Source of the DNA: Cryobacterium shii | GTDB taxonomy: Bacteria > Actinomycetota > Actinomycetes > Actinomycetales > Microbacteriaceae | Assembly: GCF_004402595.1 (NCBI RefSeq) | Contig: NZ_SOFY01000049.1 | Coordinates: 1 to 64,000, forward strand | DNA length: 64,000 nucleotides | Reading direction: 5' to 3' | Shown here: positions 46,104-57,320 of the stretch, piece after piece | How the letters are laid out: every line of letters starts with the position of its first letter | How positions within the stretch are numbered: position 1 is the first letter of the stretch | Made by a program: the position numbers and the translations under genes | Notes under the pieces: generated by a model | Told to the model about the DNA's origin: nothing | The model's database searches: none | Seen by the model: only the letters and a program-made list of their open reading frames with translations

Positions 46104-46170
46104 CTCAGCTTCAGTCTCAGTCTCAGTCTCAGTCTCAGTCTCAGTCTCAGTCTCAGTCTCAGTCTCAGTA
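46104..46170. repeat. Hexanucleotide tandem repeat (TCAGTC)
   Basis: About ten perfect TCAGTC units (46111-46170) fill the gap between convergent genes. The CPBP stop codon (46165-46167) is inside the last unit. Confidence 0.95.
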
Positions 46171-48241: not shown

Positions 48242-48250
48242 GCGGCTGCG

Positions 48251-48325
48251 CCCGGTCCCCCTGCCCGTCCCCCTGCCCGTCCCCCTGCCCGTCCCCCTGC
48301 CCGTCCCCCTTCCCGTCCCCCTTCC
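48251..48325. repeat. 12-bp tandem repeat CCCGTCCCCCTG
   Basis: About six copies, the last two with CTT in place of CTG, in the 120-bp gap between the convergent M20 and YczE genes. The opposite strand is G-rich and could form a quadruplex. Confidence 0.93.
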
Positions 48326-50672: not shown

Positions 50673-52037
50673 ATGACCGAGGGATCACCGGGTTTCCTGA
50701 ACGGCCGTTACCGGTTGAAGGACCTGATCGGCCGTGGCGGCATGGCCTCGGTTTACCGCGCCACCGACGAGCGGTTGGGCCGGGACGTCGCGATCAAGAT
50801 CTTCGATGCCGCCGCCGCGACCGAGATCGACATCGCACGGCAGCAAGCGGAGATCAACGTCCTGGCGAGCCTGAACCACCACAGCGTGACCACACTGTTC
50901 GACGTCGGCGTGCACCGCGCAGACGCCGGGCGGCCGCGGATCTACCTGGTGATGGAACTCGTGGCCGGGGCGGACCTCCGGCGCAGGCTCGACCAGGACC
51001 CGCTGTCCACCCGCCACATCGCGCAGGTCGGTTACGACCTCGCCGAGGGCCTGGACTACATCCACGGCCGCGGGGTCGTGCACCGTGACATCAAACCGGC
51101 CAATATTCTCCTGGCCGAATACAGCTCCGATTCGAGAACGCGGGCCAGGCTCACCGATTTCGGCATCGCCCTGTTCCCGGACGCCGCGCGGATGACCAAC
51201 CAGGGCCTGACGACCGGCACGGCCGCCTACCTCAGCCCCGAACAGGCCCGCGGCGACCGGGTGGGCCCTCCCAGCGACATCTACGCCCTGGGACTCGTGC
51301 TCCTGGAATGCTTCACCGGCGAGACGGCGTTTCCCGGACAGCCCGTCCAGTCGGCCGTGGCCAGGCTCCTTCGGGATCCGGCCATGCCGGAGACCCTCGC
51401 TCCGGCGTGGCGCGATCTGCTCACGTCGATGCTGGCACGCGACCCCGAGCAGCGCCCGCCCGCCGCGGATGTCGTGCTCGCCCTGCGGCAGGCTGTCATC
51501 GCCGAAACCGGCCGGCACCGCGTCATGGAGACTCACCACCTGGACGCCGATGAACCCCAGCGGCTCGACGAGGTGGCCCGCCTCGAGATTCTCGACACCC
51601 CTCCGGACGGCACCTTCGACCGGATCGCAGCCCTCGCCGCGCGGGTGTTCTCCGTGCCGATCGCCATCGTCAGCATCGTTGACACCGACCGAATCTGGTT
51701 CAAGGCACATCACGGACTCGACCTCAAGGAGATCCCGCGCGACCCCGGGCTCTGTGCGTCGGCCATTCTCTCCAAAGGCCCGTGGTTGATAGAGGATGCC
51801 CGCCGCGATCCGCGCGCGCTGGCGAACCCGCTCGTGGCCGAGGGGTTCGGCCTGCAGTTCTACGCCGGCGTTCCGCTGACGACCCAGAACGGGTACAACC
51901 TGGGCACTCTGTGCGTGCTGGACCACGAGCCACGAACGGTGACAGCGGAGGAGATCGCCACCCTCGAAGACCTGGCCGCGCTCGTGATGAACGAGCTCGA
52001 ACTCCGCCTCGAAAGCCGCCGCGCAGTCCACCACTAG
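50673..52037 (+). CDS. Serine/threonine protein kinase fused to a GAF domain
   Basis: 454 residues. The N-terminal kinase (about 13-275) has the GRGGMASVY loop, Lys42, catalytic HRD (137-139) and DFG (162-164), so it should be active. A linker leads to a GAF domain (about 294-448): EILDTPPDGTFDRIAALAAR, VSIVDTDRIWFKAHHGLDLK, LCASAILSKGPWLIEDARRD, GFGLQFYAGVPLTTQNGYNL. There is no membrane segment, so unlike PknB-type kinases it is cytosolic, and the GAF may sense a small ligand or redox state. Standalone between divergent DUF4232 and downstream dps genes. Confidence 0.93.
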   Translation: MTEGSPGFLNGRYRLKDLIGRGGMASVYRATDERLGRDVAIKIFDAAAATEIDIARQQAEINVLASLNHHSVTTLFDVGVHRADAGRPRIYLVMELVAGADLRRRLDQDPLSTRHIAQVGYDLAEGLDYIHGRGVVHRDIKPANILLAEYSSDSRTRARLTDFGIALFPDAARMTNQGLTTGTAAYLSPEQARGDRVGPPSDIYALGLVLLECFTGETAFPGQPVQSAVARLLRDPAMPETLAPAWRDLLTSMLARDPEQRPPAADVVLALRQAVIAETGRHRVMETHHLDADEPQRLDEVARLEILDTPPDGTFDRIAALAARVFSVPIAIVSIVDTDRIWFKAHHGLDLKEIPRDPGLCASAILSKGPWLIEDARRDPRALANPLVAEGFGLQFYAGVPLTTQNGYNLGTLCVLDHEPRTVTAEEIATLEDLAALVMNELELRLESRRAVHH

Positions 52038-52138: not shown

Positions 52139-52633
52139 GTGAAGGCATCAGCAGAACTCGGCTCCAACCTGCAATCCGTGCTCGTCGACCTGATCGAGCT
52201 GCACGTGCAGGGCAAGCAGGCGCACTGGAGCGTCGTCGGCAAGAACTTCCGCGACCTGCACCTGCAGCTCGATGAGATCATCGACGACGCCCGGCTGTTC
52301 TCCGACGAACTCGCCGAGCGGATGCGTGCACTCGACTCCCTGCCGGACGGACGCAGCGAGACGGTCACCGCGACCACCCACCTGGCCAAGTTCCCGGCCG
52401 GAGAGGTGGACACCGCCGAGACGGTCGGCCTGATCACCGACCGCCTGAACGCGACGGTCGACAACATCCGTGCCGTGCACGACGCGGTCGACGAGGAAGA
52501 CCCGACCAGCGCCGACATCCTGCACGGTTTCATCGAGAAGCTGGAACAGTACGCCTGGATGGTCAGCGCCGAGAACCGCACCCCACGCAAGCCCACGGCC
52601 AAGGCGCCGACCAAGCCGGTCGGCAAGGCCTGA
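52139..52633 (+). CDS. Dps family DNA-protection/ferritin-like protein
   Basis: 164 residues from GTG 52139. The ferroxidase region HVQGKQAHWSVVGKNFRDLH and LQLDEIIDDARLFSDELAER is the Dps hallmark (His and Asp/Glu iron ligands at the dimer interface). The C-terminal tail PRKPTAKAPTKPVGKA is Lys/Pro-rich, a probable DNA-binding tail. It stores iron and protects DNA from peroxide. The acyl-CoA dehydrogenase-like gene starts 74 bp later on the same strand. Confidence 0.93.
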   Translation: MKASAELGSNLQSVLVDLIELHVQGKQAHWSVVGKNFRDLHLQLDEIIDDARLFSDELAERMRALDSLPDGRSETVTATTHLAKFPAGEVDTAETVGLITDRLNATVDNIRAVHDAVDEEDPTSADILHGFIEKLEQYAWMVSAENRTPRKPTAKAPTKPVGKA

Positions 52634-52707: not shown

Positions 52708-53793
52708 GTGACGCGGATCGAGAGCGCGAAACCGGTCTGGCTGACCCCGATCGGGAAGCGCACGGCGGAGGCCGGTCTGCGCGATGCCGCGACGGCGGCC
52801 TGTGCCGTGAACGGTGACGCCGCGCGGGCCCTGGACCTGGCCCGCGCGCTCGGCGGCAGTGTTCCCCGGCCGGGATCGGGGCAGACGCGCCGGCTGTTCG
52901 AGACGCTGGCCTCCCTCGCCGCGGCAGACCTCACGGCGGGGCGGGTCGTCGAGGCGCACCTGGACGCGCTCGCCATCCTGGACCAGGCCGGCGTCGACCC
53001 GGCCGGGCTCGTCGGCGGTGGCACCACGGAATCGAGCTGGGGCGTCTTCGCCGCCGAAGGCGCGGGGAGCCGGCTCGACGCGCGGCCGGCCGGCGCGGCC
53101 GGCGGCGGGTCGTGGCAGCTCGACGGCACGAAACCCTGGTGCTCGCTCGCCCGCTCGCTCAGCCACGCCCTCGTCACGGCACACACCTCGGCCACCACCC
53201 GGAGGCTGTTCGAAGTCGACCTGGCCGACCCCGGGATCACCGTCCACACGGAGGCGTGGGTGGGTCGAGGGCTCCCGGCCGTACCCAGCGGACCCGTCGA
53301 GTTCCGGGGCGTCCGGGCCCGGCCGGTCGGGGACGACGGCTGGTACCTCCGCCGACCGGGCTTCGCCTGGGGTGGGATCGGCGTCGCGGCCTGCTGGTGG
53401 GGCGGCGCCGTCGGCGTGGCCAGGCGGGTCTGGGAGTCCGTGCTCGAGCGGGAACCCGATCAGATCGCGCTCGCGCACCTGGGCGCCCTCGACCTCGCGC
53501 TGACGACAGCCGGGGTCTCCCTGACTGACGCGGCTGCCGCGATCGACGCCGGGGATGCCGCCGGGGAGCAGGGCGCCCTCCTCGCGGCGCGGGTGCGCGG
53601 CCAGGTCGCGCGCACGGTCGACGAGGTGATCACTCGAACCGGCCACGCGCTCGGCCCCGCACCGCTCGCCCTCGAGGCCCGGCACTCCGCTCGCGTCTCC
53701 GATCTGCAGCTGTACGTGCGCCAGCACCACGCCGAACGGGACGACGCGGCGCTCGGCCGCCGGCTGCGGGATGCCGGCGTATCCCCGTGGTGA
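52708..53793 (+). CDS. Acyl-CoA dehydrogenase-like protein of the PIG-L/NodS operon
   Basis: 361 residues from GTG 52708, close to the length of this family. GGTTESSWGVFAAEGAGSRL and LDGTKPWCSLARSLSHALVT correspond to the FAD-binding middle strands, and GIGVAACWWGGAVGVARRVW to the start of the C-terminal helical domain. The catalytic Glu position is not obvious. In similar clusters this gene accompanies a PIG-L deacetylase, a NodS-like methyltransferase and a glycosyltransferase. It overlaps the fusion gene by GTGA, so the three genes form one operon. Confidence 0.82.
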   Translation: MTRIESAKPVWLTPIGKRTAEAGLRDAATAACAVNGDAARALDLARALGGSVPRPGSGQTRRLFETLASLAAADLTAGRVVEAHLDALAILDQAGVDPAGLVGGGTTESSWGVFAAEGAGSRLDARPAGAAGGGSWQLDGTKPWCSLARSLSHALVTAHTSATTRRLFEVDLADPGITVHTEAWVGRGLPAVPSGPVEFRGVRARPVGDDGWYLRRPGFAWGGIGVAACWWGGAVGVARRVWESVLEREPDQIALAHLGALDLALTTAGVSLTDAAAAIDAGDAAGEQGALLAARVRGQVARTVDEVITRTGHALGPAPLALEARHSARVSDLQLYVRQHHAERDDAALGRRLRDAGVSPW

Positions 53794-55280
53794 GCTTCAG
53801 CCACACGGATGCCGGCACGCCCGAGAACCTGTGGGCGGCGGCGCATCGGGAGGCCGTCGCAGCGGGTGAAGCGGCATCCGTCGGCTCGGTGGCCCCCGGA
53901 TCCGGACCACTGTCGCCGGCACCGCCGGTGCAGGCACTGTGCGTCGACGACTTGCTCCGGCTCGTCGTGATCGCTGCGCACCCCGACGACGAGACCCTCG
54001 GCGCCGGCGGGCTGATCGCGTGGGCCGGGCGGGCCGGAGTCCCGGTGACGGTCGTGGTGCTCACCAACGGTGAGGCCTCCCATCCCGGGTCCGGCACGCA
54101 CGACCCCGCGCGGCTCGCGGCATTGCGCCGGGTCGAGGTGACGGCGGCCATCGCAGCGCTGGCACCCTCGGCGTTGGTGCGCCTGCTCGACCTCCCCGAC
54201 GGAACCCTGGCCGGGCATCGTGACGAGGCGTCCCGAGCGATTTCCGCCGAGATCGGCTCGGACGGACCGGGAACCTGGCTGGTCGCCCCCTGGACGCTGG
54301 ACGGACATCCGGACCACGCTGCGGCGGCAGAGGCCGCCTGCCACGCCGCTCGCGGCCGGGGCGTCAGTCTCTTCGCATACCCGATCTGGGCCTGGCACTG
54401 GTCCACGCCCGGGGACCCGGTCTGGTCGGACGGCGTGATTCGCACCCTGGAGCTGGCACCCGAAGACCGTCGGCGTAAGACCCGGGCGATGGCCCTGCAT
54501 GTCAGCCAGGTGCAGCCGCTCTCCGGGCTGACCGGAGACGAACCGATCATCCAGGCGGCTTTTGCCGCGCACTTCGAACGCGGGTATGAGACCTTCATCG
54601 AGATCGAGATCGAGATGGAGATCGAGATGGAGATCGAGATGGAGATGGAGGTCGAGGTCGAGGTCGAGGTCGAACCGAGCCTGTCCGGTGCCTTCTTCGA
54701 GGAGTTCTACGCCGGGAAGCGTGACCCCTGGGGGTTCGAGACCCGGTGGTACGAGGAGCGCAAGCGATCCCTGACCCTGGCGGCCTTGCCTCGCAAACAA
54801 TTCCGGGCGGCGCTGGAACTGGGCTGCTCGATCGGCGTCCTCACGGCCGGCCTGGCCGACCGGTGCGACACCGTCGCCGCGGTCGACGTCGCGGAGCAGC
54901 CGCTGCGGGAGGCCCGAGCCCGGCTGGCCGCACACCCCGGCGTCACCTTCGCCCGGCGCACCCTGCCCGCCGAGTGGCCGGAGGGCAGCTTCGACCTGAT
55001 CGTGTTCTCCGAGGTCGGCTACTACTTCTCGGCGGTGGAGCTGCGCGAGGTGCTCCGGCGATGCCGCGGCAGCATGGCACCCGGTGGCGTGATCGTGGCC
55101 TGCCACTGGAGGCATCCGGTGCCCGAGTATCCGTTGAACGGCGACCAGGTGCACGCAGAACTCGGCAGGCTGGCCGGGTTCGAGCGCACGGTGGAGCATC
55201 GGGAACGCGACTTCCTGCTCGAGGTGTTCGAAGCCGCGCCGACGCGCTCGGTCGCGCAACGCGAAGGCCTGACACCGTGA
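53790..55280 (+). CDS. PIG-L family deacetylase fused to a NodS-like SAM methyltransferase
   Basis: 496 residues in two enzymes. Residues about 55-268 are a PIG-L/LmbE deacetylase: VVIAAHPDDETLGAGG (zinc His64, Asp66/Asp67) and LDGHPDHAAAAEAA (second His motif), which removes acetyl from GlcNAc-type groups. Residues 271-295 are 25 alternating Glu and Ile/Met/Val residues from a hexanucleotide repeat, acting as a linker. Residues 296-496 are a NodS-like class I methyltransferase (FYAGKRDPWGFETRWYEERK, SAM loop LELGCSIGVLT). NodS N-methylates a sugar after deacetylation, so the fusion may deacetylate then methylate one amino sugar (inference). Overlaps both neighbours by GTGA. Confidence 0.9.
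   Translation: MSFSHTDAGTPENLWAAAHREAVAAGEAASVGSVAPGSGPLSPAPPVQALCVDDLLRLVVIAAHPDDETLGAGGLIAWAGRAGVPVTVVVLTNGEASHPGSGTHDPARLAALRRVEVTAAIAALAPSALVRLLDLPDGTLAGHRDEASRAISAEIGSDGPGTWLVAPWTLDGHPDHAAAAEAACHAARGRGVSLFAYPIWAWHWSTPGDPVWSDGVIRTLELAPEDRRRKTRAMALHVSQVQPLSGLTGDEPIIQAAFAAHFERGYETFIEIEIEMEIEMEIEMEMEVEVEVEVEPSLSGAFFEEFYAGKRDPWGFETRWYEERKRSLTLAALPRKQFRAALELGCSIGVLTAGLADRCDTVAAVDVAEQPLREARARLAAHPGVTFARRTLPAEWPEGSFDLIVFSEVGYYFSAVELREVLRRCRGSMAPGGVIVACHWRHPVPEYPLNGDQVHAELGRLAGFERTVEHRERDFLLEVFEAAPTRSVAQREGLTP
54600..54674. repeat. In-frame hexanucleotide array encoding an (E-I/M/V) linker
   Basis: Units of GAGATC, GAGATG and GAGGTC alternate over 75 bp and translate as residues 271-295 of the fusion protein, joining its two catalytic domains. 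Confidence 0.95.
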
Positions 55281-56041
55281 CGGTCGGCGGGGCGGTCGGC
55301 GAGGCGATCGACAGGGTCATCGTCGTGGTCCCGGCCCGTGATGAGGAGGAGCTCCTGCCACGGTGCCTGGCCGCGTTGACCGTGGCGGTCGGGGAGGTCG
55401 CCCGCGTGGCAGGCGAGGCGCCGCCCGTGATCGAGGTCGTGGTCGTGCTCGACCGGTGCAGCGACGGCACGGCCGAGGTCGCTGCTGACTGGCCTGCGTT
55501 CGCGAGCATCAGCACGGACGGTGGCGGCGTCGGCCTTGCCCGCCGGGCGGGGGCGCGGCACCTGCTCCCGACGTTGACCCACTTCTCCACCGCGACGTGG
55601 ATCGCGACGACGGATGCCGACTCCGCCGTGCCGCCGAACTGGCTGACCGCGCAGCTCGCCTTCGCCCGCAACTCCGTCGATCTCGTGCTGGGAACCGTGG
55701 TGCCTGACGACCGGCTGTCCGACGGAGGCAGGGAACTGTGGGACGCCGCGCACCGGCTGGTAGAAGGGCACCCCCATGTGCACGGCGCGAACCTCGGGGT
55801 GCGTGCCGACCGGTACCTGCAGGCCGGCGAATTCGCCCTCGTCGACGGGAACGAGGATGTGCGGCTGGTTTCGGCGCTGCGCCGCCTCGGGGTGAGCGAG
55901 ATTCGTACCGAACTGATCCCCGTGCTCACCTCCGGTCGGCTCGCCGGGCGCGCCCCGGCGGGATTCGCCGGCTATCTGCGTGACCAGGCGGCGGGGGCCC
56001 GGGTCGGTGTGCTGCCCGACGCGGCAGACGTTTCGCTCTAG
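55277..56041 (+). CDS. Glycosyltransferase family 2
   Basis: 254 residues from GTG 55277. RVIVVVPARDEEELLPRCLA is the GT2 nucleotide-sugar start, VVVLDRCSDGTAEVAAD and TWIATTDADSAVPPNWL carry the DxD-like DAD motif for the metal. There are no membrane helices. The GTGA overlap with the fusion gene makes it the third gene of the operon, probably adding the sugar that is then deacetylated and methylated, or the reverse. Confidence 0.9.
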   Translation: MTVGGAVGEAIDRVIVVVPARDEEELLPRCLAALTVAVGEVARVAGEAPPVIEVVVVLDRCSDGTAEVAADWPAFASISTDGGGVGLARRAGARHLLPTLTHFSTATWIATTDADSAVPPNWLTAQLAFARNSVDLVLGTVVPDDRLSDGGRELWDAAHRLVEGHPHVHGANLGVRADRYLQAGEFALVDGNEDVRLVSALRRLGVSEIRTELIPVLTSGRLAGRAPAGFAGYLRDQAAGARVGVLPDAADVSL

Positions 56042-56063: not shown

Positions 56064-57320
56064 TCAAAACGGCGCGTCGTCCGGGGGATCTGCGGTCGGC
56101 GGCCCGGTCGGGAGCACGGTGGCGGGCTCGGTGACGAAGTCCCGACCCGTTGGGGACGTCCAGGTCAGGATGCCGCCCGGTTGCTGGGTGACGGTCCACC
56201 GGGTCTGGGTTTTCAGAGCGTGGTTGGGTTTGCACAGGTGTGCGAGGTTGTCGTGCGCGGTCTCGCCGAGCAGGGCCCAGTCGTGGCTGTGGTCGACTTC
56301 CGCACCCCTCGCCGCCCGATGGCAACCCGGAAAACGGCAGGTCTCGTCACGGAGGCGGAGGAATCGGCGCATGGCCTTGGGCGTCTTGTACCGGTCCCGG
56401 CCCACCGAGAGCACTACGCCCGTCTCCGGGTGGGTGAGCAGCCGGGTGAAACTCGGCGCCCGCGATGCCAGATCCCGCGCCGTCGCGGGGTCGATCGGTC
56501 CGTACCCTTCCAGGTAGCCGGGTTCCTCGCTGTGCCCGAGGAGCGTCATCACCGGGACGGTCACGTGCACGGTGGCTTTGACGCCGGTGCCGACGCCGGT
56601 CGGGGTGACTCCGTTGATCAGCAGGTCGCTGATCACGTCTGTGCGCACCTGCGTGAGCGTGCGCTTCTCGCCGAGGCCCTGCAGGCTCACGGCGAGGTCG
56701 TTGGCGCGGGCGAAGATCGCCTGCACCAGCTCCGCGCCCGTCGTCAGGTAGAGGGTCGCCATCCCGTCGGCCTCCGCCTGCACGCACGAGGACCGCTCCG
56801 CGATCGACCGCGCGTGCCTCGCCGTGATCGTCTCCGGGTGTAGCCGTTCCCGGAGCAGCCTGGCCTTGTGCTTGAGCTTCGAAACGGTCAGGATCTGCGC
56901 AGCGGGCAGCAGGGCCTGTTCGAAGGCGGCGAGCCCCTCGGTGGGGATCGACCAGGCCTGCCCAAGAATCGTTTGCGCGTGCCGGTAACTGAACAGACCG
57001 TCTCTCAGTGCGGCCCGCGTCGCGGGGAGGTCCTCGGCCAGGGCCCGGCTCTCCGCGAGCAGGGTCTCCGCGGTGCGCTCCGGGATCCGCAGCGTCACGG
57101 CCAGTTCGCTGGAGAGCTCCCGTCTCGCGATCTCCGTCTGGTCCCAGAGGGACTGCGCTCCCCGCGGGATCTCCGCCGCGTGCGCCTCACTGAAGCGGCG
57201 CGCAGCCTCCACGGCATCGGCCCGCAGGGCGAAGCCTTGCGCGATCACCCGATCGGCGGCCGCAACGGCGTCGAAGAGCAGCCCGAGCTGCTCCTGGGTG
57301 GTGCTCACGGTGGTGGACAT
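56064..57320 (-). CDS. DUF222/HNH endonuclease
   Basis: 418 residues. The long N-terminal DUF222 region is helical (RRFSEAHAAEIPRGAQSLWD on). The C-terminal HNH domain has RLRDETCRFPGCHRAARGAE, VDHSHDWALLGETAHDNLAH and LCKPNHALKTQTRW, with both Cys and the catalytic His residues. Many actinobacteria carry several copies of this family, often near mobile or repeated sequences; the function is unknown. Two copies of CCTCAAAACGGCG at 56043-56075 flank its 3' end. Confidence 0.9.
   Translation of the reverse strand: MSTTVSTTQEQLGLLFDAVAAADRVIAQGFALRADAVEAARRFSEAHAAEIPRGAQSLWDQTEIARRELSSELAVTLRIPERTAETLLAESRALAEDLPATRAALRDGLFSYRHAQTILGQAWSIPTEGLAAFEQALLPAAQILTVSKLKHKARLLRERLHPETITARHARSIAERSSCVQAEADGMATLYLTTGAELVQAIFARANDLAVSLQGLGEKRTLTQVRTDVISDLLINGVTPTGVGTGVKATVHVTVPVMTLLGHSEEPGYLEGYGPIDPATARDLASRAPSFTRLLTHPETGVVLSVGRDRYKTPKAMRRFLRLRDETCRFPGCHRAARGAEVDHSHDWALLGETAHDNLAHLCKPNHALKTQTRWTVTQQPGGILTWTSPTGRDFVTEPATVLPTGPPTADPPDDAPF

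Follow-up and report, generated by a model that had tools for sequence, protein, structure and literature searches.

The first 64,000 nt of contig NZ_SOFY01000049.1 from Cryobacterium shii (the window) carry on the forward strand a three-gene operon, whose second gene codes for a PIG-L deacetylase fused to a NodS-like methyltransferase; the first codes for a flavoenzyme resembling acyl-CoA dehydrogenases (ACAD) and the third for a family 2 glycosyltransferase (GT2). Together these genes make up a module of four functions (ACAD-like, PIG-L, NodS-like and GT2), and interest is better placed on this module than on the fusion. The operon comprises the following features:

52708..53793, + strand: ACAD-like flavoenzyme gene (361 aa, GTG start, TGA stop).
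53787..55280, + strand: fused PIG-L deacetylase/NodS-like methyltransferase gene (single open frame, 497 aa; start at 53787 or at a second GTG at 53790).
53790..53793, + strand: GTGA, 4-nt stop/start overlap of the ACAD-like and fused genes, read from the sequence.
53964..54347, + strand: PIG-L domain, aa 60–187 (Pfam PF02585, E 7e-25).
53976–53993, + strand: AHPDDE motif, aa 64–69, within the PIG-L domain.
54306–54317, + strand: HPDH motif, aa 174–177, within the PIG-L domain.
54597..54673, + strand: 6-bp tandem repeat (ATCGAG, 12.8 copies, 90% match), coding for an acidic linker between the two domains.
54681..55244, + strand: NodS-like class I methyltransferase domain, aa 299–486.
55277..55280, + strand: GTGA, 4-nt stop/start overlap of the fused gene and GT2, read from the sequence.
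55277..56041, + strand: GT2 glycosyltransferase gene (254 aa; PF00535, E 2.7e-13).

The first-pass annotation of this DNA had described a deacetylase and a NodS-like methyltransferase in one chain, with 4-nt overlaps to both neighbors, and all of this holds: a single open frame contains PIG-L and NodS matches above the Pfam cut-offs, with GTGA at either end. PF02585 scores 88.4 bits (cut-off 28.2), the PIG-L domain contains both the HPDDE and the HxxH motifs, and residues A64, H65, P66, D67, D68, E69, H174, D176, and H177 are invariant in 32/32 aligned fused sequences. The methyltransferase domain matches PF08242 (aa 343–436, E 7e-12) and PF05401 (NodS; aa 312–432, E 3e-11; 44 bits, curated cut-off 24), and misses the NCBIfam equivalog cut-off for true NodS (62.4 vs. 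300 bits). In the AlphaFold model (mean pLDDT 89.7, pTM 0.66), where confidence is low only at residues 39–43 and in the linker (285–293), the protein is predicted to be two folded domains loosely placed relative to each other. Structure comparisons, done as VIA-align re-rankings of Foldseek matches, gave NodS as the closest solved structure to the methyltransferase domain and matched the PIG-L domain to BC1534, BshB, LnmX, and chitobiose deacetylases. As far as the fold and the conserved motifs go, nothing contradicts the formation of the deacetylase zinc site and the S-adenosylmethionine pocket that the annotation had presumed.

Named genomes were scanned with the methyltransferase alignment, which confirmed at least 593 relatives, and the best 80 were kept; this sample, to which the counts of genome loci refer throughout, is biased toward close relatives and does not reveal where fusions fail to occur. 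The closest named relative among the matches listed is C. fucosi (91% over the methyltransferase). The module is present in Actinomycetota, Pseudomonadota, Deinococcota, and Cyanobacteriota, and its genes lie on the same strand in the order ACAD-like, PIG-L, methyltransferase, and GT2 in 74 of the 80 genome loci; among the other six, two are cut by contig ends (L063 and L100), two lack a GT2 match (L056 and L090) and two have a displaced GT2 gene (L082 and L106). A GT2 homolog occurs at 77/80 genome loci and at 17 of the 18 plasmid loci; these 17 hold all four genes, the exception being a locus from Roseomonas (L108). GT2 is found in four different positions relative to the other module genes, including on the opposite strand (two Deinococcus, Bradyrhizobium, Komagataeibacter, Jiella, and Nostoc), upstream (Roseivivax, Methylobacterium, and Rhodococcoides) and between the ACAD-like and PIG-L genes (a metagenome-assembled genome, or MAG, of Streptosporangiaceae). 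The genes are kept together despite this rearrangement, and we therefore argue that they belong to one pathway. Weighing against a strict interdependence, three Cryobacterium genomes hold the fused gene with the ACAD-like or GT2 gene missing or reduced (loci L014, L010, and L006 from genomes G016, G015, and G020, respectively), and in L014 the PIG-L metal motif is altered to HPYDE.

Recurrence of the fusion, which the annotation had left to be checked, was evident: 62 of the 80 genome loci carry the fusion, the other 18 being split into adjacent or overlapping genes, and all 20 loci fetched from the search that covered the same-genus genomes are fused (that of the window plus 19, including three from the order or genus but outside the close relatives). 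Rather than a striking feature of this operon, as first presented, the fusion is common in Micrococcales, and the corresponding genes occur separately elsewhere. Nearly all of the fused loci are from this order (Microbacteriaceae, Cellulomonadaceae, Promicromonosporaceae, Sanguibacteraceae, one Arthrobacter, and Luteimicrobium), further ones being from two unclassified Actinomycetales and one Jatrophihabitans MAG, whereas the split loci are from five Pseudomonas and from Micromonosporaceae, Nocardiopsidaceae, Geodermatophilaceae, Streptosporangiaceae, and Rhodococcoides. The 18 plasmid loci are all split, with the PIG-L and methyltransferase genes adjacent or overlapping, often by ATGA. In a quick tree built from 90 rows (66 fused and 24 split, L090 left out), the fused/split label needs two changes, vs. 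21.4 when shuffled, and the starred branches force only one, so that a single fusion event is plausible, probably in an ancestor of Micrococcales. Separately, Cellulosimicrobium sp. CUA-896 has a 718-aa frame (L057:9194–11347) that runs from PIG-L through the methyltransferase to GT2; this may be a triple fusion or the result of a frameshift.

The fusion could be suspected of being an assembly artefact or a repeat-mediated frameshift in this one genome, its junction being a 6-bp tandem repeat, a type of sequence that assemblies get wrong. This is vanishingly improbable: a change in copy number of a 6-bp unit leaves the frame intact, and the in-frame fusions of the genome (62/80) and fetched (20/20) loci, with their unlike linkers, rule out an artefact or a chance fusion. 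Chance is also excluded because 18 of 24 same-genus genomes match both halves (all except G001, G006, G009, G017, G019, and G022) and because 12 homologs, aligned over their full length, are 48–80% identical to the fused protein. The acidic linker reads IEIEIEMEIEMEIEMEMEVEVEVEVE; those of other fused proteins differ in length and composition and have no common sequence, and in the clade of the window gene they are short tandem repeats, built from a 6-bp unit in the window gene and from repeated TEPES in C. psychrotolerans (L031).

The annotation found no pathway context in the window, but stress and trehalose genes recur beside the module. In Comamonas antarctica, otsA, the ACAD-like, PIG-L, methyltransferase, and GT2 genes, and otsB form one row of touching genes, and two Acinetobacter plasmids have a catalase gene upstream of the module and otsA and otsB 2 to 4 kb downstream. 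Relatives of malQ, treY, DUF2934, and glgX occur at four of the five Pseudomonas loci, and in P. viridiflava and P. turukhanskensis the start of the ACAD-like gene is no more than 30 bases away from glgX. In P. syringae the four module genes presumably follow glgX as PSPTO3131 to 3134. The operon glgA-treZ-malQ-treY-PSPTO3129-glgX of this species is described in PMC8982409. In the window, the gene directly upstream of the operon belongs to the stress context and not to the pathway:

52139..52633, + strand: Dps/ferritin-like gene (PF00210, E 5e-20).

A dps gene lies about 2 kb or less from the operon in 11 of the 19 Cryobacterium genomes carrying it, each genome having one to three dps matches; random placement would put dps within 10 kb in 0.15 genomes, the 11 being relatives and not independent events. 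Among the genome loci, dps is found at 16, Mn-catalase at nine, KatE-type catalase at two, and treY at four; 30/80 have some of these genes and 50/80 none. Genes with a stress keyword occur at 11 of the 16 annotated plasmid loci vs. 1/12 control stretches taken from four of these plasmids (Fisher p 0.002, indicative only, as the keywords were picked after the loci had been seen). The recurrence of trehalose genes, dps, and catalases beside the module suggests a role in stress protection. Since the set is widespread, kept through rearrangements and placed in trehalose operons in several lineages, it very likely makes something useful.

The co-location with stress genes would be incidental if the product were a small specialized metabolite, such as a signal or an antibiotic-like amino-sugar compound. 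Its patchy presence (6/24 same-genus genomes lack matches to both halves), its occurrence on plasmids of several genera and the matches of the methyltransferase and flavoenzyme profiles to enzymes from amino-sugar pathways of antibiotics (gentamicin N-3'' methyltransferase, CalS10, nitrososynthases, and DnmZ) would agree with this; nevertheless, one fixed core set extends over four phyla and no exporter, resistance or assembly-line gene recurs in the annotated loci, making such a compound distinctly unlikely. Single-locus queries for a shared exporter gave no relatives beside other operons, and the MFS genes beside four loci are unlike.

The catalase and Dps neighbors would also be explained by the making or recycling of a low-molecular-weight redox metabolite, similar to bacillithiol, N-methyl-bacillithiol or mycothiol, through deacetylation and methylation of an N-acetylglucosamine (GlcNAc)-X precursor. 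The module PIG-L does share its fold and metal motif with BshB, MshB, LnmX, Dbv21, and diacetylchitobiose deacetylase, but it differs from these in being fused to, or overlapping with, a methyltransferase, and the fused protein is far below every NCBIfam thiol deacetylase cut-off (BshB1, 49.1 vs. 182.5 bits; BshB2, 43.7 vs. 195.25; MshB, 25.5 vs. 224.35; Mca, 18.8 vs. 277.15). Additionally, the annotated neighbors include no recurrent cysteine ligase or thiol gene, and the same genome has a separate MshA-like gene (C38:10794–12005) with a weak PIG-L match adjoining it (C38:10408–10773). A redox metabolite of this type is thus very unlikely, and identity with mycothiol or bacillithiol was rejected on the missed cut-offs and the location of the MshA-type genes elsewhere in the genome, none of which reaches the MshA cut-off.

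Building on the observed gene set, its recurrence, its folds and conserved motifs, and its neighborhood, we tentatively propose that the four enzymes form a route in the cytosol whose end product, a small and soluble N-methylated amino-sugar glycoside, is produced when cells face desiccation or osmotic or oxidative stress; this reading falls a little short of an even chance. It takes the enzyme activities from fold, and the order of the steps, the sugar, the acceptor, and induction by stress are likewise inferred. A cytosolic GT2 would link a small acceptor, for which trehalose is our guess from gene position, to an N-acetylated sugar, GlcNAc being the likeliest. PIG-L would then take off the acetyl group, the NodS-like domain would methylate the freed amine, the flavoenzyme would oxidize the product, perhaps at the nitrogen, and the soluble product would serve under stress. 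Deacetylation followed by N-methylation of the freed amine, as the annotation had it, is the most natural reading. The PIG-L and methyltransferase genes are always neighbors, and are fused in one large clade, which fits two successive steps on one amine; the fusion would stand in for the tight gene overlap seen elsewhere and hold both steps together.

Alternatively, the module might modify an envelope glycolipid or glycan, with GT2 adding GlcNAc to a lipid or polymer, PIG-L deacetylating it, the NodS-like domain methylating it, and the ACAD-like protein desaturating an acyl chain. PIG-L enzymes act on GlcNAc-phosphatidylinositol and on the GlcNAc of hopanoids or phospholipids, and in NCBIfam the GT2s weakly match HpnB, HpnI, and EPS; extra glycosyltransferases also adjoin the set at some plasmid loci (Paracoccus and Jiella), and a GT4 next to the Paracoccus set weakly matches N-acetylglucosaminyl phosphatidylglycerol synthase (NCBIfam). 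However, hydropathy shows no hydrophobic stretch of membrane length in the GT2 of the window, and membrane segments are missing in 9/10 of the GT2s tested. The catalytic glutamate canonical for acyl-CoA dehydrogenases does not occupy its expected position, and the contexts in Pseudomonas, Acinetobacter, and Comamonas are of trehalose and not of lipid synthesis. We consider an envelope product unlikely.

The annotation of the first gene as that of an acyl-CoA dehydrogenase stands for the fold, but an ordinary dehydrogenase is doubtful. The window protein is below the cut-off for the Pfam ACAD domain (26.9 vs. 33.3 bits), although a Deinococcus member (L022) passes those for both the N- and the C-terminal domains, and the family lacks the usual YEGT glutamate, having in its place R338-Q339, invariant or nearly so; G222 is at what we take to be the site of the isovaleryl-CoA dehydrogenase glutamate. 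An acidic residue at position 343, present in 15/16 (A3) and 43/45 (A4), could serve as catalytic base, and the hhalign alignment to a canonical acyl-CoA dehydrogenase ended short of the C-terminus and does not map the catalytic glutamate. As for the ACAD-fold flavin monooxygenases (MsuC, DszC/TdsC, and the nitrososynthases ORF36 and DnmZ), the best profile matches are MsuC (55.5 bits) and TdsC (53.8 bits), whose His and Ser align with the conserved His84 and Ser146 of the family; but they lead the acyl-CoA dehydrogenase 2dvl (53.3 bits) by only 0.5 to 2 bits, and by VIA-align Z the flavin monooxygenases are tied with isovaleryl-CoA dehydrogenases. Nitrososynthases were not among the 50 structural matches listed, which excludes nothing, and no flavin reductase recurred in the fetched flanks in one query from a single locus, although the gene for one could lie in another part of the genome. 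The ACAD-like protein could be a flavin oxygenase. Its homolog from Deinococcus radiophilus (L109:5698–7947) has about 380 extra N-terminal aa, with only sub-threshold glycoside hydrolase matches.

The proposed route follows the same deacetylate-then-methylate logic as NodB and NodS in Nod factor synthesis. NodB is a polysaccharide deacetylase, of a family other than PIG-L, and NodC is a membrane protein; in contrast, the module has a PIG-L deacetylase and a soluble GT2, and adds a flavoenzyme and a stress setting. Its methyltransferase reaches 62 of the 300 bits for NodS and has no nodulation context. A putative methyltransferase from Pseudomonas syringae solved by structural genomics (4ISC, compared by entry title) is single-domain, unlike the fused protein, and in related Pseudomonas the methyltransferase gene is separate from PIG-L. 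Each part comes from a known family, but the combination appears undescribed: the open-access texts searched held no description of the four-enzyme set or of its product.

If the product is an N-methylated amino-sugar protectant, it would represent a novel type of compatible solute or stress metabolite, recognizable by a simple genetic signature in which the fusion of Micrococcales points out two successive steps of the pathway, and a family annotated as acyl-CoA dehydrogenase would leave lipid metabolism. A wider version is possible, though doubtful: at least four phyla would share an undescribed class of stress metabolites, consisting of amino-sugar glycosides that are N-methylated, and may be permethylated (betaine-like) or N-oxygenated, perhaps on or alongside trehalose, with the ACAD-like protein acting as an amino-sugar oxygenase and two of the steps welded into one protein in Micrococcales.

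Two other genes flank this region of the window:

50673–52037: gene coding for a protein kinase domain linked to a GAF domain, just ahead of dps and the operon.
56064–57320, − strand: DUF222 (13E12-type) gene, directly downstream of GT2.

A kinase related to the kinase-GAF protein is found near four other loci (L022, L029, L030, and L052). The region also has several short tandem arrays besides the linker repeat at 54597: a 12-bp repeat at 48250–48322 and a perfect 6-bp repeat (TCAGTC, 9.8 copies) at 46111–46169, located in the 3′ end of a coding sequence on the + strand, beside a convergent gene on the − strand.
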